Shown: piece after piece, positions 22,391-44,434 of the stretch
Layout: every line of letters begins with the position of its first letter
Numbering within the stretch: the first letter of the stretch is position 1
NCBI GenBank assembly: GCA_003818285.1
Contig: RPRB01000015.1
Coordinates: 1-52,772 of the forward strand
DNA: 52,772 nucleotides
Direction: 5' to 3'
Origin: Myxococcaceae bacterium
GTDB taxonomy: Bacteria; Myxococcota; Myxococcia; Myxococcales; Myxococcaceae
Notes under the pieces: generated by a model
Seen by the model: the letters and a program-made list of their open reading frames with translations, nothing else
Database searches by the model: none
Told to the model about the DNA's origin: nothing
Made by a program: the position numbers and the translations under genes

Positions 22391-22417
22391 CAGTTGGACA
22401 AGGCTGAGCCCGTTCCG

Positions 22418-25400
22418 ATGGACGACCGGAATTTCATGCTCGGAGTTCTCGCGGCCCAGGCGGGGTTTGTCACGCCGGCTCAGGTGATCGCGGCGGGCTC
22501 GGCGCGGATGCTCGCCAGGGATGGTCGCTCGGTCCTGGACCACCTGGTCGATTCGGGAGCGCTCACTCCCGAGCGGCGGGACATGGTCGTCACCCTCGCC
22601 AACGAGGCGCTGGCCGCGAGCGGAGGAATGCCGGAACGGGTCCTGGACTCGCTCCCCGGGGCTCGGGCACTCGCACGCACTCTCGGGTCGGAGCTCGCCA
22701 CCGACGCTGCGGCCGCGTCGCCCTCGCCCGGCGACGGGGACCTCGTTCCGGTCGAGCGCGAAGGACAGTATGCCCGGCTCGACGAGCTGGGCCGTGGCGG
22801 CCAGTCGATCGTCTGGCGCGCCCTCGACCGCTTTGTGGGACGGGAGGTCGCGCTCAAGGAGCTCACCTGGCCGGGAGCGGAAAAGTCCTCGGGAAGCACC
22901 CGAGCTGCCCAGGCCCGGTTCCTCCGCGAGGCACGGCTCACTGCCCAGCTGGATCATCCTGGCATCGCCACCATCCTCGAGCTCGCCCGGCGTCCGGACG
23001 GCACGCTCTACTCCGCCCAGAAGCTGGTCCGGGGCCGGACGCTCAAGGCTGCGCTGGCCCAGTGCCGGACCTTGAGCCAGCGGCTCGAGCTCCTCCCTCA
23101 CCTCGTCAACGCGGCCCAGACGATGGCCTACGCCCATGCCCGGTCGGTGGTGCACCGCGACCTCAAACCCTCCAACGTGATGGTGGGCCCGTACGGCGAG
23201 ACGGTGGTCGTCGACTGGGGGCTGGCCAAGCGCCGCGGCGAGGCCGAGCCGGCGACCGACACGCCCACCCCCGACCTCGGGCCGGAGCTGACCCAGGCCG
23301 GGGTCGCGCTGGGCACGCCGTCGTACATGAGCCCGGAGCAAGCGCGGGGCGATCTCCAGGCGATCGACGAGCGGAGCGACGTGTTCAGCCTCGGGGCGAT
23401 GCTCTACGAGCTTTTGACGGGAAGGCCTCCCTTCCAGGGACTGGACAACGCACTGGTGATCGAGGCGGTGCGTTCCGGGCACATCGTCCCGGTCCGGGTG
23501 GTCTGTCCGGTAGCACCCCCGGAGCTGGCCGCCATCGCCGAGCGCGCGCTCCGGAGAAACCCGGCCGAGCGATATCCGGATGCCGCCGCCTTCGCCAGCG
23601 AGCTGTTGGCCTACCGGGCCGGTGCGCGAGTGGAGGCCTATTCCTACGGAAGCCTCGAGCTCGTGCGGAAGTTCGTGCAGCGGAACCCGGCGCTGAGCGT
23701 GGCCATTGCCGCTTCTGTGCTCATCCTCATCGGCGCCGCCCTGGTCGTGGCGCTCCAGCTCCGGCAAGCGCGGGTGAATCTCGCGTCCGCGCTGATCGAG
23801 CGTGCCCGGCGTGCCGAGGACGTGAGCGACTGGGCGCGTGCGGCCGCGTACTACGCCGCGAGCCGGCTGCAGAGCGACACCGCCGCGGCGCGGTGGGGAC
23901 TCGCCCTCGCCAGGGAGCGGATGCCGGAGCGGGGGAGCGCCCTCACCGGAGGACCCGGCGCCTTCACCGACGTCGACGTCCTCTCCGACGGGACCGTGGT
24001 CGCGCTCGAGAGGCGGGCCAACCTGGCGCGGCTGTACCATGCATCCACTGGCCAGAGCCTCTGGACGGCGCAGATGGAAGAGCCGATCCGAGCCGCGCGA
24101 ATCACCTCCGGCGCGGTTCGTCTTGTCTCCGGACATTTCCAGCACATCCTGGACGAGCGCACGGGGCAGGAGCTCTTCACCTCGGACGAGGAACGCGAAA
24201 CGCTCTGCAGGAACGGTCCAGCCACGCGCCGCGGTCGGATCGACCGGCCCGGCGTCCTTCACGTCGAGGGGGCGGAGGGCCCGCGCATCGAGGTCTACCC
24301 TCGCGATGCGTGCGCCATTTCCCAGGAGGGGAATCGACTGGCCATCCGAGATCTGCATGGGGTAGTGCGCCTCTGGGACCTCGACGCCCGAGGGGAGATC
24401 ACCTCCCGACCCGCGCCGGATGCGCAGGACATCGTCTTCACCGCGCACGGGGTGGCACTGGTCCGCTCGGGATCCCTCCAGCTCTTCGGCGGCCCGGAGG
24501 GAGACTTCTCGGTCGAGGTTCCCGGCCGGTCGGCGGCGGGATTCAGCAACACGCCGGCCGGGCGCGGACTGGCGGTCAGCCCGGACGGGCACCGGGTGGT
24601 GGTGGACAGCCCGACCCTGAACCGCGCCGACGTGGTGGACCTTCGCGACCGTGCCGTATTCGTCAGCGTGAGCCGCCCTCCGGGCGACCCGAGCTACGCA
24701 TTCTCACCGGATGGCTCGAAGCTCTACGCGGCAGGGCTCTCCGGAGGACGGACGCTGATTTCCTGGAACCTGCGCCGTCTCGAGGCGAGCACGAGCGGCT
24801 CGGCCGGCTCCCGGATCTACCTGCGTGCGGCGCGCGACCGGTTCATTCTCTGGGAGTACCACCGTCGGGTGGAGTTGCGTGCGGAGGACGGAACACTCCT
24901 CCGCACGCTGGATGTTCCGGGAGCCCAGGAAGTGACGATCTCGCGGGATGGGTCCACGCTTGCCATCGCCTATCCCCAGGAAATTGTCGTGCACCGGGCC
25001 GACGATGGACGGGAGCTTGCCCGGGCCTCCTGCAAGCTGTGTCTGGTCCTCTTGCTCTCCGAGAACGGATCTCGTGTGGCCGGTTTCTCGAGGGAGAGGC
25101 GGCGCGTCTGGGATGTGGATGGGTCCAGGCTCGTTCGCGACGAGCCCTTGGGGGGTGCGTCGTTGACCGCGCCGAAGACCCTCTCTCCCTCCGGAGACCG
25201 GATGGCCTGGTGCGAGAACGATGGCGTCGTGCTGGAGGACCTTTCGACAGGCAGCCTCACCCGCCTCGCGCTGCCCGAGACGCCGAGGTCGACCAGCATC
25301 AGCCCGGATGGGACCCGGCTCCTCGTCTCCCTCCCCTCGAGCTTCGCGGTCTGGAGGCTGCCGGGTCTCGAGCGGGTCTGGGCCGTCCCCAATCCTTCCT

Positions 25401-25717
25401 CAGTGCCAACCGCGGTAGGATGGTCAGCGGACGGCTCCATCGTCACTGTCGCTTACGAGGGGGCAGGCGCGCTGCTGCTGGACGCGCGCACCGGAGAAGC
25501 CCTGGCTCACATCGTCGAGGGTCGCGCGGGAGCGGGGGCTTCCCAGGTGAACGTGCTGCCCAGTCTGCGCTACCGCCTCGCCCGGACCGGGCATTCGTGG
25601 TCGCTGTTCCCGCTCCCCGAGCCGGAACGCACTGCTGCGCCAGAGAGCCTCCGTCGCACGCTCGCGGAGGGCGGGTTCCGGCTCCGTGGCGTGGAGCTCG
25701 AGGTCGTCTCGCCCTGA
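22418..25717 (+). CDS. Membrane Ser/Thr protein kinase with C-terminal propeller, paralog 3
   Basis: A 1099-residue kinase of the same architecture, 27 bases after paralog 2. ATG 22418 is chosen because it gives MDDRNFMLGVLAAQAGFV, matching paralogs 1 and 4; the frame is open from TTG 22394. Kinase motifs are intact (GRGGQSIVW, VALKEL, VVHRDLKPSN, VVDWGLAK, GTPSYMSPEQA). The helix after HPGI reads ATILELARR where the others have VHELA, so interlobe contacts may differ. The membrane helix is followed by the propeller with CKLC at 25031-25042. It is the last gene of the tandem run and is convergent with fabI. Confidence 0.92.
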   Translation: MDDRNFMLGVLAAQAGFVTPAQVIAAGSARMLARDGRSVLDHLVDSGALTPERRDMVVTLANEALAASGGMPERVLDSLPGARALARTLGSELATDAAAASPSPGDGDLVPVEREGQYARLDELGRGGQSIVWRALDRFVGREVALKELTWPGAEKSSGSTRAAQARFLREARLTAQLDHPGIATILELARRPDGTLYSAQKLVRGRTLKAALAQCRTLSQRLELLPHLVNAAQTMAYAHARSVVHRDLKPSNVMVGPYGETVVVDWGLAKRRGEAEPATDTPTPDLGPELTQAGVALGTPSYMSPEQARGDLQAIDERSDVFSLGAMLYELLTGRPPFQGLDNALVIEAVRSGHIVPVRVVCPVAPPELAAIAERALRRNPAERYPDAAAFASELLAYRAGARVEAYSYGSLELVRKFVQRNPALSVAIAASVLILIGAALVVALQLRQARVNLASALIERARRAEDVSDWARAAAYYAASRLQSDTAAARWGLALARERMPERGSALTGGPGAFTDVDVLSDGTVVALERRANLARLYHASTGQSLWTAQMEEPIRAARITSGAVRLVSGHFQHILDERTGQELFTSDEERETLCRNGPATRRGRIDRPGVLHVEGAEGPRIEVYPRDACAISQEGNRLAIRDLHGVVRLWDLDARGEITSRPAPDAQDIVFTAHGVALVRSGSLQLFGGPEGDFSVEVPGRSAAGFSNTPAGRGLAVSPDGHRVVVDSPTLNRADVVDLRDRAVFVSVSRPPGDPSYAFSPDGSKLYAAGLSGGRTLISWNLRRLEASTSGSAGSRIYLRAARDRFILWEYHRRVELRAEDGTLLRTLDVPGAQEVTISRDGSTLAIAYPQEIVVHRADDGRELARASCKLCLVLLLSENGSRVAGFSRERRRVWDVDGSRLVRDEPLGGASLTAPKTLSPSGDRMAWCENDGVVLEDLSTGSLTRLALPETPRSTSISPDGTRLLVSLPSSFAVWRLPGLERVWAVPNPSSVPTAVGWSADGSIVTVAYEGAGALLLDARTGEALAHIVEGRAGAGASQVNVLPSLRYRLARTGHSWSLFPLPEPERTAAPESLRRTLAEGGFRLRGVELEVVSP

Positions 25718-25798
25718 TGGACGACCTCGAGCAGCTTCAGGTCGCCATCCGCGGCGCTCGCAGCGGGCGCAGGGACTGGATGAGGTTCTCTCCCTCGC

Positions 25799-26578
25799 TC
25801 AGCCGACGACGTTCGCGCCGCCGTCGACGTACACCGTGCCGCCGGTGATCCGCCGGGCGAAGGGGGTGGCCAGGTACGCGCAGGCGAAGCCCACGTCCAT
25901 GATGTCCACCAGCTCGCCCAGGGGAGCCTTGTGCGCCGCCTCGTTCAGCAGCGCCTCGAAATCCTTCAGTCCGGAGGCCGCCCGCGTCTTCAGGGGCCCC
26001 GGCGAGATGGCGTGGACCCGGATGTGGGCCGCACCGAGCTCATGCGCCAGGTACCGGCAGGATGCCTCGAGCGCTGCCTTCACCGGGCCCATCACGTTGT
26101 AGTTGGCGACGACGCGGTTCGCGCCGAGGTAGCTCATTGCGAACATCGTCCCGCCCTGGGTCATCAGCGGCGCCGCCAGCCGGGCCATGCGGATGAAGGA
26201 GTGGCAGGACACGTCCATCGCCCGTGCGAATCCCGCGGCCGAGCAGTCGAGCAGGCCGCCCTGGAGATCTTCCTTCGGAGCAAAGGCGATCGAGTGGATG
26301 AGGCTGTCCAGCTTGCCCCAGCGCGAGCGGAGAAGATCGAACAGAGTCTCCATCTGCCCCGGAGCTTCGACGTCGAGCGGTGCAGTGAGGGTCGCGCCCA
26401 GTTCCCGCGCCAGCGGCTCCACGTGGACGCGCGCCTTCTCGTTGAGCCAGGTAATGGCCAGCTCGGCGCCGGCCTCGCGGAAGGCGCGGGCGCAGCCGTA
26501 GGCAATCGACCGGTCGTTGGCGATGCCGACGATCAGCGCGCGATGACCGGCGAGAATGGGAGGGATGCTCTCGCTCAT
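25799..26578 (-). CDS. fabI: Enoyl-[acyl-carrier-protein] reductase (NADH), FabI type
   Basis: A 259-residue short-chain-dehydrogenase-type enoyl-ACP reductase, which performs the last reduction of each fatty acid elongation cycle. Seen: the FabI-specific nucleotide motif VGIANDRSIAYGCA, the catalytic tract SYLGANRVVANYNVMGPVKAALE split as SYLGA...NYNVMG..K (both tyrosines and the lysine kept), and the C-terminal ITGGTVYVDGGANVVG. ATG 26578 (MSESIPPIL) is chosen over upstream in-frame codons because it starts right at the conserved domain. It lies antisense between kinase paralogs 3 and 4. In other bacteria a fabI of this kind often accompanies pta, ackA and DUF3141, which sit 19 kb away here. 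It may be a second, non-housekeeping reductase. Confidence 0.93.
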   Translation of the reverse strand: MSESIPPILAGHRALIVGIANDRSIAYGCARAFREAGAELAITWLNEKARVHVEPLARELGATLTAPLDVEAPGQMETLFDLLRSRWGKLDSLIHSIAFAPKEDLQGGLLDCSAAGFARAMDVSCHSFIRMARLAAPLMTQGGTMFAMSYLGANRVVANYNVMGPVKAALEASCRYLAHELGAAHIRVHAISPGPLKTRAASGLKDFEALLNEAAHKAPLGELVDIMDVGFACAYLATPFARRITGGTVYVDGGANVVG

Positions 26579-26657
26579 GTTCGAGACCGAGCGCTGCAGG
26601 CGCCGACCCAGCACGCCTGGACCGGTCCAACGGGGTTTGTCGGCATTCCGTTCACTC

Positions 26658-28016
26658 CTAGAAGTGGAAAGCAAACCGGGCGAGCAAGTACGCGACCGTG
26701 GTCGAGACCGAGACCCCGATCAATCCCGGCACCATGAAGCTGTGGTTCAGCAGGTACTTGCCGATGTGGGTGGTCCCGGTCCGGTCCATGTTGATGGCGG
26801 CGAGATCGCTCGGATAGAAGCAGAAGAAGAAGTACGCGTAGCTCGCCGGGATCAGCCCCAGCATCAGGGTCGCGGGTAGACCGAGCACGATCCCGAACGG
26901 GATCATCACCGTCAACGTCGCCGCCTGGCTCTTCACGAATGCCGAGACACAGAACATCGCGATGGCGAAGGTCCAGGGTGCCAGCTGCACCATTGCCTTG
27001 ATCTTGCCGATGAGCAGGACCTGGTTCGAGGTGACGAAGGTGTCGCTCATCCAGGCGATGCCGAAGATCGAGACTACCGCGATCATCCCCGCCTTGAAGA
27101 CGGTCGCGTTCGCCACGTCCGCTGCCTTCACCTTCGTAGCGAAGAGGATGAACGCGCCGAAGGCGAGCATCACCATCTGCACCACCGTGGTCATCGGAAC
27201 CGGCTTTCCGCCGACCAGCGGAAGGAGCTGCGGGAGGTGGTAGCCCGCGTTCGCGAACGTGTCGCGGAGCGCGAGTCCGACGATGAACAGCACACCGCCG
27301 AAGAAGAGCGCCACCGAGAGCTTCGCGGACGCCGGCAGCTTCTTGTCGAGGGTCGTCACCGTCGTCTCGAGCTGGGCCCGCAGAGCTGGGTCTGCCATGC
27401 GCCGTTGGAACTCGGGGTCCCTCTCGAGCTCCACGCCGCGCTTCAAGCTCCAGGTCGCGGCCGCGATCACGCCGACGATCCCGGCCGGCAGCGTGATCTT
27501 GAGGATGTCGAAGATCGTGAGGGCCGCGCCCATCCTGGACGAGTAGCCGAGGAAGGTGGTCACCGCCGCTGCGACCGGGCTGGCGGTGATGCCCATCTGC
27601 GCGGCGACGCTGGAGACCGCCATGGGCCGCTCCGGGCGGATCCGCGTCTTCAGCGCAACGTCGGCAATGACAGGAAAGAGGGCGTACACCGCGTGCCCGG
27701 TGCCCACGCAGACGGTGAGAAAGAAGGTGCAGAGCGGCGCCAGGAGCGTGACGCGGTTCGGGTGCGCGCGCAGCAGCCTCTCGGTGAGCTGGACGAGATA
27801 CTCGAGGCCGCCGGCGACCTGCAGCGTGGCGGAGGCGGTGACCACCGCGAGGATGATCAGCATGACCGCGACCGGTGGCTCGGAGGGCGGGGCGCGGAAG
27901 ACGAAGACGAGCAGCGCGACTCCGAGGCCGCCGATCAGCCCGAGCGCGATCCCACCCCGGCGGATGCCCAGGAGGATGGCGGTGAGCACCATCGCGAACT
28001 CGATCCAGAAGATCAT
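26658..28016 (-). CDS. dcuB: Anaerobic C4-dicarboxylate transporter, DcuB type
   Basis: A 452-residue inner-membrane carrier with about ten or more hydrophobic segments. In enteric bacteria it exchanges fumarate for succinate during fumarate respiration. Seen: GGIALGLIGGLGVALLVFVF, SATLQVAGGLEYLV, RPERPMAVSSVAAQMGITASPV and the C-terminal YPSDLAAINMDRTGTTHIG with NHSFMVPGLIGVSVS, all close to E. coli DcuB as I recall it and closer than to DcuA. AAGGAGGT lies a few bases upstream of ATG 28016. It is upstream of fabI on the same strand, with 79 bases between them, so they may be co-transcribed. Its presence suggests growth without oxygen. Confidence 0.92.
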   Translation of the reverse strand: MIFWIEFAMVLTAILLGIRRGGIALGLIGGLGVALLVFVFRAPPSEPPVAVMLIILAVVTASATLQVAGGLEYLVQLTERLLRAHPNRVTLLAPLCTFFLTVCVGTGHAVYALFPVIADVALKTRIRPERPMAVSSVAAQMGITASPVAAAVTTFLGYSSRMGAALTIFDILKITLPAGIVGVIAAATWSLKRGVELERDPEFQRRMADPALRAQLETTVTTLDKKLPASAKLSVALFFGGVLFIVGLALRDTFANAGYHLPQLLPLVGGKPVPMTTVVQMVMLAFGAFILFATKVKAADVANATVFKAGMIAVVSIFGIAWMSDTFVTSNQVLLIGKIKAMVQLAPWTFAIAMFCVSAFVKSQAATLTVMIPFGIVLGLPATLMLGLIPASYAYFFFCFYPSDLAAINMDRTGTTHIGKYLLNHSFMVPGLIGVSVSTTVAYLLARFAFHF

Positions 28017-28315
28017 GGACACCTCCTTCCCGCGGTCCGTGCCGGGCGCTGTCGCGCCGACCTCGTCACGGACCAAGCGCAATCTCGGGCGGTGGAGGCC
28101 TTGCTCTGAACCTTCACGAATCTGTCGCAGCAATCACCGGACCCGTTACCGGCGGAGAGGGGGGTCGCGCGGTGGGCAGGAGTCCCCGCCCCAGCTGACC
28201 CTCGGGTGACCATCGCGCGCGCTGGGGGCAGTCGAGGGCGCATCGCAGTAGGCTCGGGCGATGCACCTCGTCCCATGCGCAAGGGCAGTTCTCCGTCGGC
28301 CCTGAGCCCGCGCCG
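28017..28315. other. Divergent intergenic region between dcuB and kinase 4
   Basis: About 300 bases that must hold the promoters for dcuB (minus) and kinase 4 (plus). I see the dcuB ribosome site (28020-28030) and no convincing Fnr- or Crp-like palindrome, sigma-54 box or short gene. The last 15 bases before kinase 4 resemble those before kinase 3 (CTGAGCCCG..CCG then ATG), so the duplication included the start region. Confidence 0.5.
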
Positions 28316-31300
28316 ATGGACGACCGGAATCTCATTCTCGGGGTCCTGGCCGCGCAGGCCGGGTTCGTCACCCCGGCGCAGGTGATGACCGCGGCCTCGA
28401 TGCGCATGCTGACGCGCGACGGCCGGTCGCTGCTCGATCACCTGGTGGACTCGGGTGTGCTGACTCCCGAGCGGCGTGACCTCGTGATGGCCCTCGCCAA
28501 CGAGGCTCTAGCCGCGAACGGTGGAAGCCCGGAGCGAGTGCTGGAGTCGGTGGACGGAGCGCGGGCCCTCTCCTACACCCTCGGCGCGCTCCCTGGCGAC
28601 TCCGAGGCGCGAGCACCTGCCTTCGAGGGCGCAGAGGTCATTCCGGTCGAGCCGGAAGAAAAGTACGCCCGCCTCGACGAGCTGGGCCGTGGCGGACAGT
28701 CCATCGTCTGGCGCGCGCTTGACCGCTTCGTGGGTCGGGAGGTGGCGCTCAAGGAGCTCACGTCTCCCGGAACAGGGGATTCTCCCGGGAGCGCCAGCGC
28801 GGCCAGGGCCCGCTTCCTCCGCGAGGCGCGGCTCACGGCACAGCTCGACCACCCGGGGATCGTCGCGGTCCACGAGCTCGCGCAGCGACCGGATGGCACG
28901 GTCTACTCGGCCCAGAAGCTGGTCCGGGGCCGGACGCTCAAGGTGGCGCTGGCCCAGTGCCGGACGTTGAGCCAGCGGCTCGAGATGCTCCCGCACCTGG
29001 TCGCGGCGGCGCAGGCGGTGGCCTATGCCCACGGCCGGTCAGTGGTGCACCGGGATCTCAAGCCCTCCAACGTGATGGTCGGGCCCTTCGGCGAGACGGT
29101 GGTCGTCGACTGGGGCCTGGCCAAGCGTCGGGGCGAGACAGAGCCAGCGGGCCCCACGCCCAGCCCCGACTCGAGTCCCGAGCTGACCCAGGCCGGGGTG
29201 GCCCTGGGGACGCCCTCGTACATGAGTCCCGAGCAGGCCAGAGGCGACCTCGAGGCCATCGACGAGCGGAGCGACGTGTTCAGCCTCGGGGCGATGCTCT
29301 ACGAGCTGCTGACGGGCAGACCACCCTTCGAGGGGGCGGACAACGCCCAGGTCATCGAGGCGGTGCGTTCCGGGCGGCGGGTACCGGTCCGGGTGCTGTG
29401 TCCGGAAGCGCCCCCGGAGCTGGCCGCCATCGCCGAGCACGCGCTCCGGAGCATTCCGGCCGAGCGCTATCCGGACGCCGCCGCCTTCGCCAGCGAGCTC
29501 TTGGCCTATCGGGCGGGTGGGCGGGTCGAGGCCTATGCGTACGGAACCCTCGAGCTGACGCGGAAGCTCGTGAGGCGAAACCCGGCGCTGAGCGCGGCCA
29601 TCGCCGCGTCGGTCCTGATCCTGATCGTCGCTGCGGTGGCGGTGCTGGTTCAGCTCCGGCATGCCCGGGTGAATCTCGCATCGGCGCTGATCGAGCGTGC
29701 CCGGCGCGCCGAGGACGTGAGCGACTGGGCGCGTGCTGCCGCCTACTACGCCGCGAGCCGGATCGAGCACGATGCCGCCGTGGCCCGCTGGGGCAGCGCC
29801 CTGGCCATGGAGCGCATGCCGGGGCGAGGCAGCGTCCTCACCGGCCCCCCGGGCGCGTTCACCGACGTCGACGTCCTGCCCGACGGGACCCTGGTCTCGC
29901 TCGAGACCCGAGGAGACATCGCGCGTGTGTACGAGATCGCGACGGGCCGTACGCTTTGGACCGCACGGCTGGAGGAACCGATCAGCAGGGCGCGCATCAC
30001 TGGTGGGGCCGTCCGCGCCACGTTCGGACATCTCACCCGCGTCCTGGATCTCATGACGGGACAGGAGCGCTTCACCTCCGACCTGAAGGAGGAGTGGCTC
30101 TGCTGGAGCGGGCTCCCGACCCGTCGTGCTCGAATCAGCAAGGGTGTCCTTCTGGTGGATGGCGCCGACGCGCACCCGGAGGTCGCCCTGAACGCTCCGT
30201 GTGTCATCTCCCCGGCAGGAGACCGGCTGGCGTTCAAGGACCAGGGAGGAATCGTTCGACTCTGGGACATAGCGTCGGGGCGGGAACTGGCCTCCCGGCC
30301 CGCGCCCGATGCGGCGGAGATAGTCTTCACCGCCCATGGCGTGGCGCTGGTGCGCTCGGGCTCGCTGCAGCTCTTCGGTGGGCCCGAGGGGGACTTCTCC
30401 ATGGAGCTCCCCGGCAGGTCCGCCTCCGGGTTCGGCGTGATGTCGGATGGCCGCGTCCTGGCGGTCAGCGCGGACGGGCACCGGGTGGTGGTGGACAGCC
30501 CGACGCTGAACCGCGCCGACGTGGTGGATCTCCGCGACCGTGTCGTCTTCGTCAGCGTCAGCCGCCCCCCCGGCGTCCCGAGCTACGCGTTCTCGCCCGA
30601 CGGGGCGACGCTCTACGCCTCGGGGCTCTCGGGAGGGCGAACCCTGATCTCCTGGAACCTTCGCCGCCCGGCGCCGAGCACCAGCGGCTCGTTCAGCTCG
30701 CGCCTCGTCTTCCGCGCCGGGCGCGCACGGTTCCTTCTCGTCGAGAGGTGGAAGCGGGTGGAGCTACGCTCGGAGGACGGCACGCTGATCCGCGCGCTCA
30801 CCGACCCGGAGGTCGGGGACGCAGCTCTCTCCGCCGACGGATCCACGCTGGCCCTCGCCCGTCGCCCGGACGTCGTCATCCAGAGGGCGGACGACGGACA
30901 GGAGCTGGCCAGGCTCGCCTGCGAGCAGTGCCTCAGCATCCTGCTCTCGCCCGACGGAAGTCGCCTCCTGACCCGCTCCGACCAGAGGCGTCGCGTCTGG
31001 GACGTCCGCGGAGCTTCGATCCTTCTCGACGAGCCCATGGGGAGCGTTCGGCGGAACGACCACCACGCGATCGCGCCGGGCGGAGAGTGGATCGCCTGGC
31101 TGGAGGCGGATGGGTTCGTGCTGCAGCAGGTCTCCACCGGAACGAGGAGTCGCCTCCGCCTGCCGGACCGCCCCGAGACGATGGCGATCAGTCCCGACGG
31201 CGCTCGCGTCGTCATGTACGTGCCAGGGCAGATTGCCGTCTGGAGGCTCCCCGGATTCGAGCCGGTCTGGAGCACGCCCAACCCCACCTCCATCGGCTCG

Positions 31301-31606
31301 ACGGTCGGCTGGTCCGCGGACGGTTCCGTCGTCACCGTCTCTCACGAGGGTGCCGGCGCAGTCCTGCTCGACGGGCGCACCGGGGAGGAGCTGGCCCGGA
31401 TCGTCGAGGGCCCCTCGGGAGCGGGGCTCTCGCAGGTGAACGTGCTCCCCAGCCTCCGGTACCGCCTCGCCCGGGGAGCGCATTCGTGGGCGGTCTTCCC
31501 CATCCCCGCGCCGGACTCCACGGCGCCCGCCCAGAGCCTCCGCCGCGCGCTCGACGCGGGCGGGTTCCGCCTTCGCGGCGTGGAGCTCGAGGTCGTCTCG
31601 CCCTGA
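28316..31606 (+). CDS. Membrane Ser/Thr protein kinase with C-terminal propeller, paralog 4
   Basis: A 1096-residue kinase of the same architecture as the tandem three, separated from them by fabI and dcuB. ATG 28316 begins MDDRNLILGVLAAQAGFV. Kinase motifs: GRGGQSIVW, VALKEL, VVHRDLKPSN, VVDWGLAK, GTPSYMSPEQA. The membrane helix is SAAIAASVLILIVAAVAVLV. The propeller has the conserved pair CEQC at 30920-30931 and the other conserved cysteines (WLCW, APCVIS). Bases 28823-29137 are nearly identical to paralog 2. There is no Shine-Dalgarno sequence right before the start, as with paralogs 1 and 3. Confidence 0.92.
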   Translation: MDDRNLILGVLAAQAGFVTPAQVMTAASMRMLTRDGRSLLDHLVDSGVLTPERRDLVMALANEALAANGGSPERVLESVDGARALSYTLGALPGDSEARAPAFEGAEVIPVEPEEKYARLDELGRGGQSIVWRALDRFVGREVALKELTSPGTGDSPGSASAARARFLREARLTAQLDHPGIVAVHELAQRPDGTVYSAQKLVRGRTLKVALAQCRTLSQRLEMLPHLVAAAQAVAYAHGRSVVHRDLKPSNVMVGPFGETVVVDWGLAKRRGETEPAGPTPSPDSSPELTQAGVALGTPSYMSPEQARGDLEAIDERSDVFSLGAMLYELLTGRPPFEGADNAQVIEAVRSGRRVPVRVLCPEAPPELAAIAEHALRSIPAERYPDAAAFASELLAYRAGGRVEAYAYGTLELTRKLVRRNPALSAAIAASVLILIVAAVAVLVQLRHARVNLASALIERARRAEDVSDWARAAAYYAASRIEHDAAVARWGSALAMERMPGRGSVLTGPPGAFTDVDVLPDGTLVSLETRGDIARVYEIATGRTLWTARLEEPISRARITGGAVRATFGHLTRVLDLMTGQERFTSDLKEEWLCWSGLPTRRARISKGVLLVDGADAHPEVALNAPCVISPAGDRLAFKDQGGIVRLWDIASGRELASRPAPDAAEIVFTAHGVALVRSGSLQLFGGPEGDFSMELPGRSASGFGVMSDGRVLAVSADGHRVVVDSPTLNRADVVDLRDRVVFVSVSRPPGVPSYAFSPDGATLYASGLSGGRTLISWNLRRPAPSTSGSFSSRLVFRAGRARFLLVERWKRVELRSEDGTLIRALTDPEVGDAALSADGSTLALARRPDVVIQRADDGQELARLACEQCLSILLSPDGSRLLTRSDQRRRVWDVRGASILLDEPMGSVRRNDHHAIAPGGEWIAWLEADGFVLQQVSTGTRSRLRLPDRPETMAISPDGARVVMYVPGQIAVWRLPGFEPVWSTPNPTSIGSTVGWSADGSVVTVSHEGAGAVLLDGRTGEELARIVEGPSGAGLSQVNVLPSLRYRLARGAHSWAVFPIPAPDSTAPAQSLRRALDAGGFRLRGVELEVVSP
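28823..29137 (+). repeat. Near-identical kinase block, copy in paralog 4
   Basis: Partner of 19601-19915, with the same 315-base length and no gaps. Flanking sequence in the same genes is clearly less similar, which marks it as a conversion tract or selected core rather than simple recent duplication of the whole gene. Confidence 0.75.
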
Positions 31607-35848: not shown

Positions 35849-36352
35849 GTGACCATCACGCTCACCACCGCCCAGCTCAGGGCCATCTGTCCCGGCGCAC
35901 CTGCGGGCGCCGTCGCGGCACTGAACGTCATCCTGGCCCGCACCCAGAGCGTCACCGACCTGCGGGCGGCGATGCTAGTGGCGCAGCTCGCCGTCAGGTC
36001 GGACTCCTTCACTCTCCTCGAGGAGGAGGACGGCTCACGCCGCGCCTTGACACCCTATTTCGGTCGAGGGTGGATCCAGCTGACCGGCCTCCGGAACTAT
36101 CGAGCGGCGGGGGCGGCCCTGGCGCTCGATCTGGTGAAGCACCCCGAGCTGGTGGTGCCGCACAACGCCGAGGTGACGGCCTGGTTCTGGAGCGCTCACC
36201 GGCTGCATGCCTTCTCCGACGTGGGCGACGTGCACGGTTGCACCCGGGCCATCGACTGGACGGCGACGAGGCCGCGCCAGCTGGCGCTGCGCCGAGTGGT
36301 GTACGAGCAGGCCCGGTGGGTACTCGCCGGGTCGCGCCACTTCGCTGCCTGA
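35849..36352 (+). CDS. GH19-like (chitinase/endolysin fold) protein lacking catalytic glutamates, copy A
   Basis: A 167-residue protein whose order matches bacterial GH19 endolysins: an N-terminal LTTAQLRAICPGAPAGAVAALN, then RAAMLVAQLAVRSDSFTLLEEEDG, PYFGRGWIQLTGLRNYRAAG, LDLVKHPELV and EVTAWFWSAHRL. In active members the helix reads like AQ.AHES, where the Glu is the catalytic acid; here it is AQLAVRS. The downstream YEGR segment with the second Glu is deleted, and the NGG.NG loop is missing. It probably binds peptidoglycan or a partner rather than cutting. GTG 35849 is chosen by alignment with copy B at 43931; the ribosome site is weak. About half of the residues match copy B. Confidence 0.7.
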   Translation: MTITLTTAQLRAICPGAPAGAVAALNVILARTQSVTDLRAAMLVAQLAVRSDSFTLLEEEDGSRRALTPYFGRGWIQLTGLRNYRAAGAALALDLVKHPELVVPHNAEVTAWFWSAHRLHAFSDVGDVHGCTRAIDWTATRPRQLALRRVVYEQARWVLAGSRHFAA

Positions 36353-37466: not shown

Positions 37467-37659
37467 GCCAGTCCCGGCAACGCGTGTCGCGCGAGGCAGC
37501 GCGATTCATCGTTCACGCTCGCCCGGATCCGGCGGGCGTGAATTGCCGCCACGCAACGCCCCGCCTCCGAAACGACTGCCCGCGCGGCGCCCTGACGTTG
37601 GCCTCCGCATTGCTAGGTGGGATCCGCGCGATCGCGGAATCATCACCGGACGCGACGTG

Positions 37660-37776
37660 ATGCAGAACGTCGGAATCATTTACCGGGAGTTCGGCGCCCG
37701 CTGTCTCGTGCGGTGCCTCTGGGTGCTGGCGATCGGTAAGCGGACGACGTTCCTTGACGTCATCAGCCAGCACTGA
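37660..37776 (+). CDS. Repeat-borne micro-ORF, copy A (shortened)
   Basis: A 38-residue frame, MQNVGIIYREFGARC..., that matches copy B at 43562-43708 except for a few residues. The ATG that starts copy B is lost here through a one-base deletion, so the first 10 residues cannot be made from the same start. The next ATG is at 37660. The protein frame is better conserved than a random frame would be (some third-base changes are silent), but the copy may be inactive. No function recognised. Confidence 0.35.
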   Translation: MQNVGIIYREFGARCLVRCLWVLAIGKRTTFLDVISQH

Positions 37777-37823
37777 CCCCGTGCACTCCGCTCCGGCACT
37801 CCCAGGGTCGTCACCACGCTCGA

Positions 37824-37842
37824 GACACAGCTTCTCTGTGTC
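37824..37842 (+). other. Hairpin in repeat copy A
   Basis: GACACAG and CTGTGTC form a perfect 7-bp stem around the loop CTTCT. The same stem with a different loop occurs at 43755-43773. No T-run follows, so it is not a classic terminator. Confidence 0.5.
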
Positions 37843-37856
37843 GACACCGGGCTGGC

Positions 37857-38075: not shown

Positions 38076-38480
38076 TCAGCGACCGCTGCCGCCGGCACCG
38101 GGCAGGCCGTTGGGCACGCAGGCCGCCGGTTCACCGGGCGGACCGCTCCGGCAGACGCCGGCGAACGGCTCCCCTCGAGGGCCGGCGATCCCACAGGCCG
38201 CGCCATCCTGCTGACCCTTGCAGGCCTCGACCGCCTCCGGGGGAGGCCCCGGTCGCGGCGGTTCGGGGGCGCAGGCGACGGTCCCGCCGGGCAGCTGCCG
38301 GCAGCTCCCGGTGACGCTCCGGCCCTGGTGCTGCAAGGGACAGGACGCCCCGGACTCGCGACCGACGCAGGCAGCCACGGCCTCCTGGGAGGGGGAAGGC
38401 GGCACGGGCTCCTGGGCGATCGCGAGCGGGGCGATGAGGAGTGAGAGGGAGAAGCAGAGGGAGGCAGCGCGAAAGTTCAT
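38076..38480 (-). CDS. Secreted Cys-rich protein with two tandem repeats
   Basis: A 134-residue protein with a clear signal peptide (about 1-22, SLSLLIAPLAIAQ). The mature part is two copies of a four-cysteine unit: EAVAACVGRESGASCPLQHQ...GSCRQLPGGTVACAP and EAVEACKGQQDGAACGIAGP...GVCRSGPPGEPAACVP. Spacing is C-x7-C, then C and C at conserved distances, so each unit probably forms two disulfides. Similar short Cys repeats occur in other myxobacterial secreted proteins as I recall. It follows the kinase-like lipoprotein by 18 bases on the same strand, so it is likely the last gene of that operon and perhaps its substrate or partner. Confidence 0.75.
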   Translation of the reverse strand: MNFRAASLCFSLSLLIAPLAIAQEPVPPSPSQEAVAACVGRESGASCPLQHQGRSVTGSCRQLPGGTVACAPEPPRPGPPPEAVEACKGQQDGAACGIAGPRGEPFAGVCRSGPPGEPAACVPNGLPGAGGSGR

Positions 38481-38498
38481 CGGAAAGGAGTCCGCCTT

Positions 38499-40187
38499 CT
38501 AGAGCGCCTGGCCCGCGGATTCCGGTCGTCGCAGCCCGGCCACCCGTCCGGCCGACGCCTCCTGAACGTGAACCCAGAGGGGTCCCTGGCCTGGCCTGCC
38601 GGTGGACAGCTCCACGATCCCCTGGCCGGGAGGCAGCGCCGGGAGCGCGGTGCACAGCTCGCCGTCACTCCGGCGCTGGACCGGGAGGTCGCCGAAGCTC
38701 GTCGACGAGTACCAGATCCGGGCGGAGAAGGCGGGGGCGGTGGGTACGGCGGCCTCCACAGCCCGGTCGCGGACACAGAGGGTGCGATCCTCGACCCGCG
38801 CGTCGGTGAGCGAGGACACCCGCAGGAGGTATCGCTGGAGGATCCGGTCGCGCCTGCCCCGAAGGATGCGCACGAGCTCGCTCCGGGCCACCGGGCTGGT
38901 GAGGCGCGCCTCGCGGACCACGCCAGAGATGCTCTCGTCGTCGAAGCGGGCGATGATCCGCGCCATCCAGGCGCCGTCCTCCTCCAGCATGTTGGAGAAC
39001 GCGGGATTGGGGTATCCCGCCTTCCAGTCCTCGGCGACGAACTCCTCGTCGTTGAAGTAACCGAAGATCTTCCCGGCCGGCCCGTAGTGAGCGCGCTCCC
39101 AGGGGCGCTCCAGCGCGCCGAAGGTGAAGAAGTCGGTCGCGATCGCCCCGAAGTCGATGTAGTAGGTGTAACCGACGCGGCGAGAGAGCCTGTCCATCCT
39201 GGCATCGGTGTCGCTCCCGATCTGGATCAGGCCGCCGAGGGTATCTCCCCAGTCGATCATGTAATGCTCGACGTGCCCCCGTCCGCCCCCATCATCGGCC
39301 CAGAGCGCCAGCGTGTTCTGCGAGCGCGCATCGTGATGGCTGATCCAGGCGGCGAGGAGCCGCGAGCCGCGGAGCTCTCGGCGGTCCTGGTGCGGGACCG
39401 CGTCGTTCGGGTCGTCCCCGCGCACGCCCTCGTAGAGCCACGGCCCGATCGGCTTCCCTGGCAGGAACTCGCTGGCCAGGCCACGGAGAGTGCCATCCTG
39501 CTCGCGTGGGAGGTCCTTGAGCATCACCTCGATGCTCTCACGGGTGAGCGGCTTCCCATCCGAGCCTGAGATCGGCTTCTCGGGGAGCTGAAGGTCGGCG
39601 GAGCGGAAGTAGACCACGCGGTTGCACGGCGCCTGGAATCCGGCCGCGAAGTAGAGCCGGCTCCCCACCACGTCCGCCGCCGATGCCCGCTCCCACTGGC
39701 TCTTGTTGTCGAACTTCAGGAGGTACCTGGTCCCGGATCGGGTCGTGATCTGAAATCCCGGGTTGTCGCCATCGGCCTTGGCCGCCACGACCTTCCACGG
39801 CAGGTCCGCCTCGGGCGATGGCCGCGAGCACGCGCCGCGAGCGATCTCCTCCGCGGTCATTCGCTGTCGAGAAAGCCGGTTCACGAACCAGCTCGAATCC
39901 GGGACCTCGTCGAAGGCGTTCACGTTCACTGCCGCGCGCGACGTCTCGAGCAGAAACATGTGGGAGACAGGCCGGAAGAGGATGTGGTCGGCGCCGTCCC
40001 AGTACTTCGGGATGTACGAGGTCTCCGGGGGGCGCTCGAACGGCCGGCGGTCATCGTCTACCCAGAGCGTAGGTGCGGCCGTGAACTGGCGCGGACCGGA
40101 GGCGCAGCCTGTGAGGCCCCCCCACACGAGGAGCGCCAACACCGCGACGGCCACGATCCAGATGCGGGTGAGATCCTTAGACTCCAT
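38499..40187 (-). CDS. Lipoprotein with protein-kinase-like motifs (unknown family)
   Basis: A 562-residue lipoprotein (lipobox GLTGC, Cys about 28). Its middle carries motifs in kinase order: SGTRYLLKFDNKS with Lys 158, SWxxE-type helix QWERASAADVVG, then SHHDARSQN (284-291), which has the H-x-D-x4-N spacing of a catalytic loop, and MIDWG (311-314) in the place of DFG. This resembles HipA/Fam20-like atypical kinases and a family I recall beside BamA-like barrels in Acidobacteria and Myxococcota. Because of the lipid anchor it would act outside the cytoplasm, where ATP is scarce, so activity is uncertain. Its start overlaps the barrel gene by 11 bases. Confidence 0.72.
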   Translation of the reverse strand: MESKDLTRIWIVAVAVLALLVWGGLTGCASGPRQFTAAPTLWVDDDRRPFERPPETSYIPKYWDGADHILFRPVSHMFLLETSRAAVNVNAFDEVPDSSWFVNRLSRQRMTAEEIARGACSRPSPEADLPWKVVAAKADGDNPGFQITTRSGTRYLLKFDNKSQWERASAADVVGSRLYFAAGFQAPCNRVVYFRSADLQLPEKPISGSDGKPLTRESIEVMLKDLPREQDGTLRGLASEFLPGKPIGPWLYEGVRGDDPNDAVPHQDRRELRGSRLLAAWISHHDARSQNTLALWADDGGGRGHVEHYMIDWGDTLGGLIQIGSDTDARMDRLSRRVGYTYYIDFGAIATDFFTFGALERPWERAHYGPAGKIFGYFNDEEFVAEDWKAGYPNPAFSNMLEEDGAWMARIIARFDDESISGVVREARLTSPVARSELVRILRGRRDRILQRYLLRVSSLTDARVEDRTLCVRDRAVEAAVPTAPAFSARIWYSSTSFGDLPVQRRSDGELCTALPALPPGQGIVELSTGRPGQGPLWVHVQEASAGRVAGLRRPESAGQAL

Positions 40188-41685
40188 AGGTGACCCCGAG
40201 GGCGAAGCGGAAGGAGTTGATGCTGAAACCCTTGGAGAACGGCTCGCTCCCCATTCCGAAGACCATCTGGAAGCTGCTCCGTCCGAAGGAGGGCTGGGTC
40301 CGGAGGCCGACCTCGAACGATCCCCGGAGCGAGTCCCAGCGGAAGTTGCTCAGGTGCTTGTCGAAGACGTTCCCGAACCCGACCGCCACGACTCCGTCCA
40401 GGTAGTCGAACACCGGCCATCGCCAGGAGAGCTGCGCCGCGGCGGCGCTCCGGTCCCGGAGCCGACCGGCCATGAACCCGGCAAAGGGCTCGGTCCCCCC
40501 GACCACGACGAGCTCGTTGAACGGGACCGGCTGGTCGCCCATCGGGTCGGAGAAGGCGGTGAACACGCCGAGGCTGAGCACCCGGCCCTTGCCGGTCACG
40601 TCCCAGGAACCCTCGACGTGCGCGCCGTAGTGGATCCAGGAGCGATCGAAACCCTGGGTGGCGTCCACGGCGGGCGCGACCTCGACTCCGATCCGGACCC
40701 CGCTGCGGTTGGTGTACCCGGCCGGTCGCGTGTCGAGCACCGCCCGCAGTCCGACCTCCGCCGCGGTGGTGTTCTGACCGTAGCCGGGGGGAGGGGCCAG
40801 CTCGCCGCGCTCGACCCGCTCGGCAACGGTGGGGTCGCCGCAGCAGTTGTAGTCACGGAACACGGTGCGGTACACGCGGCCGTGGCTCTCCAGCCGGAGC
40901 GGGCCCATCCGGTGCATGTAGGTCAGTCGCCCCTCGATCTGGTCGGTGCCGTAGCGGGAGCGGAAGTCGTCGGAGGTGTCCGGCCCGATGCCGAAGTAGA
41001 CGTAGTCCGGGCGGCGCTGCCACTGAGCCTGGAGCGCGATCCAGTCTCCCCCGGAGAACGTGTACCGATCCCCGACCGCCACCCGGACCCAGTCCGAGCC
41101 GCCCCAGGCGGCGTCGGCGGTGAAGGTGTTCCTGGCGACGAACGTGTCGTCCCAGAAGAAGTGGGCCCCGATGGTCGGCCTGAACCCGGTGTTGAAGGAG
41201 AACGTCGGCAGGATCCCGCCGCGGTGGTTGGGGCCGAAGGCGAAGAAGTCGTAGAGGGACCCGGCCCAGTTGTTCTTCTCCGCGACGGTGCTGATCCCGC
41301 CCACCGGGGCGCGCAGCGCGTACTCGGTGACCAGATATGCCGGAAGGAGGATGACCCGGGGCACCCAGATGAGGACGTCTCCCGCCGTGGTCGCCTCGGA
41401 GTCGAGCTGACGGTAGTTCGGGACGTCACGCCGGGGCGAAAGCTCCGCGGGCGGGGTCGTCGAGTCGGATGCGGAGGTCGCCGCGTCCGAGGGCGGCGGT
41501 GCCGGCTGAGAGGGCGCGGACATCGGCTCCGAGGACGGAGGCGTGGGTTCCGGCTTCTCCTCGGCACCAAGAACGGGCACTGCCCATCCGAGCGAGACGA
41601 GGAGAAGGAGAGCTCTCCCCAGCCTTGCCCCGACCACATCGGCCCGCGGCACCGGGGCCATGCGACGGGTTCTGGCGACGTTCAT
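40177..41685 (-). CDS. BamA/TamA-like outer-membrane beta-barrel protein
   Basis: About 502 residues from ATG 41685 (GTG 41703 is possible; neither has a strong ribosome site). A signal peptide (GRALLLLVSLGWAVPVLGA) leads to a Pro/Ser-rich linker (about 45-85). The remainder has alternating amphipathic strands typical of a 16-strand Omp85-type barrel (TFTADAAWGGSDWVRVAVG, GVEVAPAVDATQGFDRSWIHYG, NSFRFALGVTYGV), with the motif NELVVVGGTEPFAGF. No POTRA domains are visible. First gene of an operon with the kinase-like lipoprotein and the Cys-rich protein, suggesting a dedicated export or display route. Confidence 0.82.
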   Translation of the reverse strand: MNVARTRRMAPVPRADVVGARLGRALLLLVSLGWAVPVLGAEEKPEPTPPSSEPMSAPSQPAPPPSDAATSASDSTTPPAELSPRRDVPNYRQLDSEATTAGDVLIWVPRVILLPAYLVTEYALRAPVGGISTVAEKNNWAGSLYDFFAFGPNHRGGILPTFSFNTGFRPTIGAHFFWDDTFVARNTFTADAAWGGSDWVRVAVGDRYTFSGGDWIALQAQWQRRPDYVYFGIGPDTSDDFRSRYGTDQIEGRLTYMHRMGPLRLESHGRVYRTVFRDYNCCGDPTVAERVERGELAPPPGYGQNTTAAEVGLRAVLDTRPAGYTNRSGVRIGVEVAPAVDATQGFDRSWIHYGAHVEGSWDVTGKGRVLSLGVFTAFSDPMGDQPVPFNELVVVGGTEPFAGFMAGRLRDRSAAAAQLSWRWPVFDYLDGVVAVGFGNVFDKHLSNFRWDSLRGSFEVGLRTQPSFGRSSFQMVFGMGSEPFSKGFSINSFRFALGVTYGV

Positions 41686-42369: not shown

Positions 42370-43498
42370 CGCCGTGCGCTCGCAGCTGACACTCAGGACG
42401 GCGTTCACCGCCTGCTTCGCGGTGGTGGCCACCGCGGGGGCGGTGCGGTTCGTCCTCGAGACCCGGGTGGCCCTCACCCTGACCGTGGCGGCGATGATGG
42501 TGGCCATCGCGCTGGACCACGTGGTGCGGCACATGGAGATGCGCGGGCTCGGACGCGGCCGGGCCATCGCCCTCACCATTCTGGCGGTGACCCTGTTGAT
42601 CATCGGGCTGACGCTGGTCGTCGTGCCTGCGGCGGTCCGTCAGCTCCAGGAGCTCATCGCCGCCATCCCTCGCATCCTCGACGACCTGCGCCACTCGTCG
42701 TGGTTCGCATCCTGGAACGGGCGCTTCGGGGTCGAGGAGCGGGTCAAGAACCGGTTCTCCGGCGCCTTCGGGCTCACCCAGAGCGCGGTGGATCCCATCC
42801 TGGGCGCGGTCACTTCGGTACTGGGCGCCGTCGCTGGGTTCGTCACCGTGCTCGCCCTGACCGTCTTCATGCTGGTCTTCGGTGGTGGACTGGTGCGGCG
42901 GCTGCTGGCGGTGGCACCGGCAGTGGACCGGCCGCGCTGGGAGGACGTGCTGGCCAAGTCGTACACCGCCGTCAGTGGCTACCTCGGCGGGATCCTCTTC
43001 ATCTGCTCGATCAACGCGACTCTCACCATCGCGGTGCTGGGGCTGATCGGCGCCCCGTACTTCCTGCCGCTCGGGCTGCTGAGCGGCTTCTCCAGCCTCG
43101 TGCCCTACGCCGGGCCCATCTTCACCGGAGCATTCATCACCCTTGTCACGCTGGCCACCGGCGGAGCAGTCAAGGCGCTGATCGCCCTGGGCTACTTCCT
43201 CCTCTACGGCCAGCTGGAAGGGAACGTGCTCGGCCCCTTCGTCGTTCGCCGCACGGTGCACCTCAATCCACTGGTGGCGCTGCTTGCGGTTCTCTTCCTC
43301 GCCGAGCTGCTGGGTGTGGCCGGCGCGGTGGTGGCGGTGCCGGCGGTCGCGGTGGCGCAGATCTTCGTCCGAGAGCTCCTGGCCGCCCGACGCGACCGCC
43401 TCTCGGCCGACGCCTCGGTCTTGCCACCGCTCTTCGGGCCCGCATCGTCTCCGACGGCGCCGCCGCCCGTGCTGGTGGAGCGACCCTCGTCCCGCTAG
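42287..43498 (+). CDS. AI-2E-family (YdiK/PerM-like) membrane transporter
   Basis: A 403-residue inner-membrane protein with about eight hydrophobic segments. The family features are present: an N-terminal pair of helices (LALTVAAMMVAIALDHVVRHM-like), the long amphipathic region after VVVPAAVRQLQELIAAIPRIL, YLGGILFICSINATLTIAVLGL, FSSLVPYAGPIF and LEGNVLGPFVVRRTVHLNPLVALLAVL. Members have been assigned varied substrates (autoinducer-2, sodium/proton exchange, peptides); none can be chosen here. GTG 42287 is the longest start and overlaps the ChaB gene; a GTG at 42299 or the GTG at 42374 are alternatives. Confidence 0.88.
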   Translation: MAAAVALETPERRASRARRAHRLKLAVDAVRSQLTLRTAFTACFAVVATAGAVRFVLETRVALTLTVAAMMVAIALDHVVRHMEMRGLGRGRAIALTILAVTLLIIGLTLVVVPAAVRQLQELIAAIPRILDDLRHSSWFASWNGRFGVEERVKNRFSGAFGLTQSAVDPILGAVTSVLGAVAGFVTVLALTVFMLVFGGGLVRRLLAVAPAVDRPRWEDVLAKSYTAVSGYLGGILFICSINATLTIAVLGLIGAPYFLPLGLLSGFSSLVPYAGPIFTGAFITLVTLATGGAVKALIALGYFLLYGQLEGNVLGPFVVRRTVHLNPLVALLAVLFLAELLGVAGAVVAVPAVAVAQIFVRELLAARRDRLSADASVLPPLFGPASSPTAPPPVLVERPSSR

Positions 43499-43561
43499 CG
43501 ACCGAACTGCCCGCGCGGCGCCCTGACGCTGGCCTCCGCATTGCTAGGTGGGATCCATGCG

Positions 43562-43708
43562 ATGCGCGGAATCATCACCGGACGTGACGTGGTGCAGAAC
43601 CTCGGAATCATTTACCGGGAGTTCGGCGCCCGCTGTTTCGTGCGGTGCCTCTGGGTGCTGGCGATCGGTAAGCGGACGACGTTCCTGGACGTCATCAGCC
43701 AGCACTGA
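43562..43708 (+). CDS. Repeat-borne micro-ORF, copy B (48 aa)
   Basis: ATG 43562 gives MRGIITGRDVVQNLGIIYREF followed by GARCFVRCLWVLAIGKRTTFLDVISQH. It is short, with a basic, hydrophobic middle (CFVRCLWVLAIGKR) and two cysteines. Copy A encodes almost the same residues with partly silent base changes, which suggests a protein constraint. No ribosome site stands out (GGTGGGATCC lies upstream). Possibly a repetitive myxobacterial small protein; no function recognised. Confidence 0.5.
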   Translation: MRGIITGRDVVQNLGIIYREFGARCFVRCLWVLAIGKRTTFLDVISQH

Positions 43709-43754
43709 CCCCGTGCGCTCCGCTCCGGCACGCCAGGGTCGTCACCACGCTCGA

Positions 43755-43773
43755 GACACAGCCCCTCTGTGTC
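43755..43773 (+). other. Hairpin in repeat copy B
   Basis: GACACAG and CTGTGTC pair perfectly around the loop CCCCT. The stem is identical to copy A while three of the five loop bases differ (or fewer, depending on alignment), the pattern expected of a maintained RNA or DNA structure. Confidence 0.5.
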
Positions 43774-43930
43774 GACACAGGGCTGGGCGTGCCTCCGGGC
43801 CGTCTGGAGCTGGTGGGGACGGCAGGAGCGACGCCGTGTTCCACGGCTGGCGTGGCCCTTGCTCCGGACCCTGGAGGAAACGCCTTCCCCGACCGGGGCA
43901 ACTCAAGCAACAGAGAAGGAAGTCACCGTC

Positions 43931-44434
43931 ATGCCCATCTCGCTCACGCCGCGCCAGCTGAAGGCAATCGTTCCGGAGGCGCCCGCCAGCGCAGTCCTCA
44001 CCCTGAACTCGATCCTCGCCCGGACCAGCGCCGTGACCCATCTCCGCGCCGCAATGCTGGTGTCCCAGCTCGCGACCTCCTCGCGCGATTTTCGGCTCCT
44101 GGAGGAGAAGGACGGCCGGCTCAGGCCCAGCGCGCCCTACTTCGGCCGGGGCTGGATCCGGCTCACCGGAAAGCGGGCGTACCGGGAGGTGGGCGAGGCG
44201 CTCGACCTGGACGTGGTTCGCAATCCTGATCTGGTGCTGCTCCACAACACCGAGGTCACGGCCTGGTTCTGGAACGCTCACCACCTCCACCGGTTCAGCG
44301 ACGACGGTGACGTGGACGGCTGCGTGCGCGCCATCTCCGGGGAGGGCGGGAGGCCAGAGGCGCTCTCCCTGGCCCGCACTTTCTACGACCGGGCCTGTTT
44401 CGTGCTCGCGGGCGCACACGAGCTGGCTGCCTAG
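43931..44434 (+). CDS. GH19-like (chitinase/endolysin fold) protein lacking catalytic glutamates, copy B
   Basis: A 167-residue paralog of the protein at 35849. ATG 43931 has a GGAAG ribosome site. Alignment to GH19 endolysins: LTPRQLKAIVPEAPASAVLTLN, RAAMLVSQLATSSRDFRLLEEKDG, PYFGRGWIRLTGKRAYREVG (70-89), DLVLLHNTEVTAWFWNAHHL. Active enzymes have HE at the place of Thr49-Ser50 here; the second Glu region is deleted and the NGG.NG motif is absent. No signal peptide is seen. A role in cell-wall hydrolysis is therefore unlikely; binding, decoy or immunity are possible. It follows repeat copy B and precedes a 16-bp palindrome. Confidence 0.72.
   Translation: MPISLTPRQLKAIVPEAPASAVLTLNSILARTSAVTHLRAAMLVSQLATSSRDFRLLEEKDGRLRPSAPYFGRGWIRLTGKRAYREVGEALDLDVVRNPDLVLLHNTEVTAWFWNAHHLHRFSDDGDVDGCVRAISGEGGRPEALSLARTFYDRACFVLAGAHELAA

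Follow-up and report, generated by a model that had tools for sequence, protein, structure and literature searches.

What might a lipoprotein with kinase-like motifs do in the cell envelope, and which of the genes beside it are its partners? The question is raised by a run of three minus-strand genes in a 52,772-nt stretch of DNA (the window) from a Myxococcaceae bacterium (GenBank assembly GCA_003818285.1, contig RPRB01000015.1; the genome, designated G000, comprises 5.77 Mb in 502 contigs). The run begins with a gene for an Omp85-superfamily barrel of 502 amino acids (40177-41685, with its ATG at 41685 and an alternative GTG start at 41703), continues with that for a kinase-fold lipoprotein of 562 amino acids (38499-40187), and ends with that for a Cys-rich secreted protein of 134 amino acids (38076-38480). 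The first two genes overlap by 11 nt (40177-40187) and an 18-nt gap separates the lipoprotein stop codon from the Cys-rich gene, in agreement with a preliminary description of the locus, in which the three genes were said to overlap or to lie 18 bases apart. That description proposed an extracytoplasmic modification and display system with the small protein as its substrate. On balance, we think that the operon probably encodes an extracytoplasmic kinase-fold phosphotransferase that works with an outer-membrane barrel as a conserved two-protein module; the kinase fold and the barrel linkage of the earlier proposal are upheld, while the Cys-rich substrate is not. What computation shows is a kinase fold, a conserved group of catalytic residues, a lipobox, pairing with the barrel, and a linkage to nucleotide transporter (NTT) and PAP2 phosphatase genes.

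The lipoprotein carries three motifs, noticed already in the preliminary description, that follow one another in kinase order. A candidate strand-3 (VAIK-type) lysine, K158, lies within “YLLKFD” (codon at 39714-39716, on the minus strand as are those that follow), and is succeeded by a candidate catalytic loop, H284-x-D286-x4-N291 (39315-39338), and a candidate metal-binding (DFG-like) motif, D312-W-G (39246-39254). In an alignment of 33 lipoprotein family sequences, to which all residue counts given here refer, K158, D286 and N291 are invariant, as are K137, G140 and G144, with D312 present in 32/33 and H284 in 30/33; the third position of the last motif is Gly in 19 sequences and Ser in 14. 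As judged from these counts, the motifs are not there by chance. The alignment also contains invariant residues that are specific to the family (D259-P260-x-D262, H266, R269-R270, R273, W281 and H308). By pattern, the window protein has an LTG-C lipobox at Cys28 with Ala at the +2 position, and a lipobox-like motif is found in at least 25 of 32 homologues.

Searches of Pfam, NCBIfam, PHROGs and PADLOC with the lipoprotein returned no match, and none of the Pkinase, APH, HipA_C, Fam20C, CotH and PI3_PI4_kinase profiles matched it above the curated cut-off. Pfam searches with the other 32 family members yielded chance matches only, as did PDB sequence searches with the single protein and with the 33-member profile. 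The family is uncurated and has no database entry. Profile alignment with HipA using hhalign placed the lysine and the D-x4-N motif in register, although weakly (E = 0.07), and HipA membership was rejected because this value is not significant alone.

AlphaFold2 modeled the full-length lipoprotein with a predicted local distance difference test (pLDDT) score of 90.7 and a predicted template modeling (pTM) score of 0.90, rising to 93.3 and 0.92, respectively, for a core of residues 123-456. The model begins with strands 131-136, 144-148 and 154-159, the last of which holds K158, followed by helix 167-182 and then by two more strands (189-194, 234-240). After helix 270-282 comes the H-x-D-x4-N loop, which is succeeded by two further strands (292-298, 303-310) and finally by D312, and the order of these modeled elements is that of a kinase. 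When the core was compared with the PDB using Foldseek, the best 50 matches listed were all kinase-fold structures; the best of them have a probability of about 1.00, and the list includes RIO2 (E = 6.1e-5), CtkA (1.1e-4; TMt 0.47-0.51), Fam20C (1.3e-4), PI4KII-alpha (2.9e-4), HipA (1.1e-3) and CotH (1.3e-3). Fam20C ranks first (9e-4) in the full-length comparison. A separate beta-rich C-terminal domain, at about residues 460-553, is predicted beyond the core, and the weaker full-length matches include an Ig domain of the filamin type. The kinase core anticipated in the preliminary description is therefore borne out by a confident model whose closest solved structures are kinases: the lipoprotein has, in prediction, a two-lobe kinase fold that is distantly matched.

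Fam20C acts outside the cytosol, within the secretory pathway. With Fam20C, CotH, HipA, CtkA and RIO proteins (PDB 4kqa, 5jda, 3tpv, 3akk and 4gyi), the lipoprotein shares the predicted bilobal fold, the strand-3 Lys, and the D-x4-N and D-x-G motifs. It differs from them in showing no significant sequence or profile similarity, in being a lipoprotein of bacteria that carries an additional beta domain at its C-terminus and is partnered by a barrel, and in the family-specific invariant residues listed above.

The gene upstream of the lipoprotein encodes the barrel. The protein matches the Omp85 family (PF01103) over residues 242-497 with an E value of 3.7e-7 and 30.4 bits, above the cut-off of 24, and no POTRA profile matches it. 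The roughly 100 residues that precede the barrel domain comprise a signal peptide and a Pro/Ser/Ala-rich linker, and are too short to hold both a signal and a POTRA domain; the protein is thus a barrel without POTRA, as first described. A loop-6-like motif, “GG..PMRGF..GR”, occurs in many barrel homologues, of which 23 were aligned, and takes the form “GGTEPFAGFMAGR” in the window barrel. POTRA-less barrels constitute the “noNterm” Omp85 subfamily (Heinz and Lithgow 2014, PMC4104836). The window barrel resembles these proteins in having an Omp85 barrel with no N-terminal POTRA domain, a placement made at the level of Pfam, and differs in its pairing with a kinase-fold lipoprotein, of which the available part of that paper makes no mention.

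Evidence that barrel and lipoprotein belong together came from a survey of 45 lipoprotein genes in 41 loci, for which a codon-usage script predicted the neighboring genes and profiles of the lipoprotein, barrel, NTT and PAP2 families served to label them. A barrel gene lies immediately upstream on the same strand for 31 of the 45 lipoprotein genes and immediately downstream for two, and the gap from barrel to lipoprotein gene is -19 to +20 nt in half of the cases. The pairing of the two is conserved across the phylum. The linkage envisaged at the outset among all three families thus stands for these two and fails for the Cys-rich protein, whose repeat pattern is found in none of the other lipoprotein loci examined. 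Some loci contain two lipoprotein genes or two barrel-lipoprotein pairs (L041, 6196-9449; L037, 3388-9678; L029, 1241-9374; L045, 1154-7692), and the lipoprotein at 1157-2803 of L045, while very divergent (branch length 2.6), still keeps K158, D286, N291 and D312. A literature search that did not extend to subscription journals found no publication describing the kinase-fold lipoprotein or its combination with an Omp85 barrel or a nucleotide transporter.

The family is patchily distributed. It is present in 7 of 195 genomes of a sample of the phylum and in none of 39 near relatives of the window genome, while a profile scan of GTDB genomes, with other phyla outside its scope, located 27 loci with 35-44% identity, all in metagenome-assembled genomes of Myxococcota. 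Plasmid and viral collections contained no relatives. Similar proteins, with the motif H-E-H-R-R-E-L-R-G...W...D-x4-N, may also occur in Acidobacteriota, Gemmatimonadota and Bacteroidota. The window genome itself has a second full copy on contig C55 that is 62% identical, with a barrel that is 61% identical, and a third, degraded copy (C82:5627-7380, L006) lacking the N-terminal part that holds all the catalytic motifs. In a maximum-likelihood tree, the two full copies group with full support, clearly apart from the rest, and the patchy occurrence within the organism's own family suggests that the lipoprotein was acquired horizontally in this lineage. The degraded copy consists of C-terminal fragments interrupted by a GH19-like gene, and an intact-looking PAP2 gene adjoins it.

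A further linkage, which was not part of the preliminary description, connects the barrel-lipoprotein pair to genes for membrane transport and phosphate removal. Of 39 homologous loci outside the window genome, 18 contain genes of the NTT family (PF03219), whose products may or may not carry HEAT repeats, and 12 contain genes for PAP2 phosphatases (PF01569). The 423 kb of homologous loci contain 24 NTT genes, as against about 0.4 expected, and 17 PAP2 genes, as against about 0.5, given background densities that we estimated at about 1 and 1.2 per Mb, respectively. While Poisson values for the enrichment are only a rough guide because the loci are related to one another, the linkage is far above background. 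NTT or PAP2 genes directly adjoin the barrel or lipoprotein gene in 24 cases, 17 of them on the same strand, and many of the gaps measure -8 to +86 nt. The C55 copy groups NTT, NTT-HEAT, lipoprotein, PAP2 and barrel genes together with a gene in the place of one for a cyclic-nucleotide-binding protein.

The identity of these neighbors is supported by PF03219 matches above the cut-off in 7 of 9 transporter genes tested from related loci, and by the match of one neighboring transporter to solved ATP/ADP carriers (9j3n, 7.5e-8; 9j3j, 1.9e-6). Two invariant lysines, a “D...R.G” motif close to the C-terminus and some other positions are common to the linked NTT proteins and the canonical carriers, and the Glu of “AELWGS” is absent from the linked group. 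Major et al. (2017, PMC5381601) surveyed the fusion of NTT and HEAT domains in free-living bacteria, and reported both the function of the fusion proteins and the way in which their domains interact as unknown. The proteins described there and those linked to the lipoprotein have in common the PF03219 match, the HEAT extensions and an accompanying gene for a cyclic-nucleotide-binding protein; the linked proteins are set apart by about 20% identity to canonical carriers and by a kinase and barrel context not found in the available text of that survey. The PAP2 neighbors match PF01569 with E values from 1e-12 to 7.6e-21, and are of more than one subtype, with weak matches of the LpxF and undecaprenyl-pyrophosphatase type. 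They share the PF01569 match with PAP2 lipid phosphatases of the LpxF and undecaprenyl-diphosphatase types, but are linked here in a minority of loci and belong to more than one subtype.

In the window, the NTT-HEAT gene nearest to the operon lies 28 kb away on the plus strand (7314-9989), and encodes a relative of TLC ATP/ADP carriers with HEAT repeats (PF03219, 7e-6; PF13646, 4e-9). It belongs to the same family as the transporters that adjoin homologous operons, and is a possible functional partner only. A gene for a cyclic-nucleotide-binding protein (9990-10919) directly follows it, an arrangement like that in PMC5381601.

From these data we infer how the lipoprotein might catalyze a reaction, on what substrate, in which final location and with what supply of donor. 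After export, the protein would receive a lipid on Cys28 and be held in a membrane beside the POTRA-less barrel; the absence of Asp at +2 makes the outer membrane the most likely one. K158, N291 and D312 most likely bind a nucleotide-metal complex, and D286 could act as the catalytic base in the transfer of phosphate, or another group, to an envelope protein, glycan or lipid. The barrel may anchor the lipoprotein, place it at the surface, or export or receive the modified product. Any kinase that works outside the cytoplasm of a Gram-negative cell faces an obvious problem, namely where its ATP comes from. ATP is not known to be present in the periplasm, so the donor would have to be delivered, and the best candidate for delivering it is the repeatedly linked NTT-type carrier, presumed to reside in the inner membrane. 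The linked PAP2 protein may be a lipid-phosphate phosphatase that acts on the substrate or on a by-product. A full scheme of cross-envelope phosphorylation in Myxococcota, where an NTT exports ATP or another nucleotide and an Omp85-coupled kinase-fold lipoprotein modifies the envelope or surface in balance with PAP2, is speculative, and we do not expect it to hold in its entirety. The linkage hints at a possible fuel supply for an extracytoplasmic kinase and, since the relatives of ATP/ADP carriers are linked repeatedly, allows the question of ATP source to be tested directly with a small number of genes. POTRA-less Omp85 barrels may gain a context from it too, as may the NTT proteins found in free-living bacteria, for which PMC5381601 reports the role to be unknown.

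Several observations weigh against a phosphotransferase that works with the barrel and draws on an NTT for its donor. TM-scores to known kinases are low (about 0.2-0.5), and the family is therefore regarded as a distant kinase-fold branch, not filed under any of the matched families; sequence and profile searches revealed no sequence-level homology to any characterized kinase. No conserved alpha-C Glu could be recognized in the 33-sequence alignment, the sole candidate for a salt bridge to the strand-3 Lys being E166 (27/33) at the start of helix 167-182, and the “DFG” Gly is replaced by Ser in 14/33. Ten of the 45 lipoprotein genes, two of them at a contig edge, have no recognizable barrel alongside. 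Neither an NTT nor a PAP2 gene lies within 4.5 kb of the window operon, and the linked NTT group, at about 20% identity to canonical ATP/ADP carriers and with not all subfamily motifs kept, may carry a cargo other than ATP. The incomplete conservation of the DFG Gly would also suit a non-catalytic kinase fold, in which the lipoprotein is a scaffold, or a sensor of nucleotide or phospholipid, that chaperones or gates the barrel in the way that accessory lipoproteins serve barrel machines. Tight pairing with a barrel is consistent with such a role, catalysis has been lost in many kinase-fold families, and the pseudokinase Fam20A is among the structural matches. However, near-invariance of the metal and phosphate residues down to 32-35% identity is unusual for a pseudoenzyme, and the linked NTT and PAP2 genes suggest a chemistry of phosphate, making this account rather unlikely. 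An active enzyme that is not a protein kinase is somewhat easier to accept, if still doubtful: it would transfer AMP, a glutamyl group or phosphate to a glycan or to an envelope lipid such as lipid A, and PAP2 would be the phosphatase that counteracts it. This is a sub-case of the proposed phosphotransferase, differing in the substrate or the group transferred. The PAP2 neighbors, with their weak LpxF and undecaprenyl-pyrophosphatase-type matches, and the presence of the lipid-acting kinase fold of PI4KII among the matches speak for it; PAP2 is present in only 12/39 loci, in more than one type, which speaks against it.

It is also conceivable, though again we lean away from it, that the NTT and PAP2 genes have nothing to do with lipoprotein function, and that an envelope gene cluster was co-inherited with no shared biochemistry. 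The window copy has neither gene nearby, the NTT proteins may carry something other than ATP, and the loci, all of one phylum, are not independent of one another. Against this, single-domain NTT and NTT-HEAT genes occur on either side of the pair, with 4-8 nt overlaps in several loci, which argues for repeated recruitment. The last proposal to consider is that of the preliminary description, with the lipoprotein as modifier of the Cys-rich protein and the barrel displaying or exporting the modified product. The small protein was correctly described as secreted with two repeats, since both a signal peptide and two AC-x4-G-x2-C...G-x-C...AC repeats are found, and its gene lies 18 nt from that of the lipoprotein. 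That adjacency, seen in one genome, is what the substrate idea rested on. The protein has no match in Pfam, NCBIfam, PADLOC or PHROGs; its repeat pattern is missing from all other lipoprotein loci examined; and its only relative in the genome, 71% identical, lies on contig C194 between unrelated-looking open reading frames, with no barrel or lipoprotein nearby. No Cys-rich gene stands beside the C55 operon copy. Because the gene is not conserved beside the lipoprotein, the substrate idea is left without support and is very improbable, and the small protein is rejected as a conserved third member of the system. The Cys-rich protein is best treated as a lineage-specific neighbor that may be co-transcribed, and the NTT and PAP2 neighbors of the proposed phosphotransferase may say more about its mechanism than this gene does.

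A promoter scan of the locus detected no sigma-70-like promoter, and the two terminator-like sites found are uninformative given 1.9 expected by chance. A 300-bp direct repeat (37557-37855 and 43488-43786, up to 96% identical and 5.93 kb apart) encloses the operon and an AI-2E-type transporter gene, with partial copies on contigs C120, C255 and C104. GH19 chitinase/lysozyme-like genes lie on either side of the operon (35849-36352 and 43931-44434), and there are further GH19-like copies on C120 and, inside the degraded lipoprotein copy, on C82. The position of the repeat just upstream of the GH19-like gene, both at 43931 and on C120, suggests that the two may form a mobile cassette, of which the repeat beside the operon may be an orphan. 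Elsewhere in the window, 15876-31606 encodes four related proteins of about 1,070-1,100 amino acids, three of them head to tail; two were scanned, and both are Ser/Thr protein kinases that also give weak matches of the beta-propeller type.

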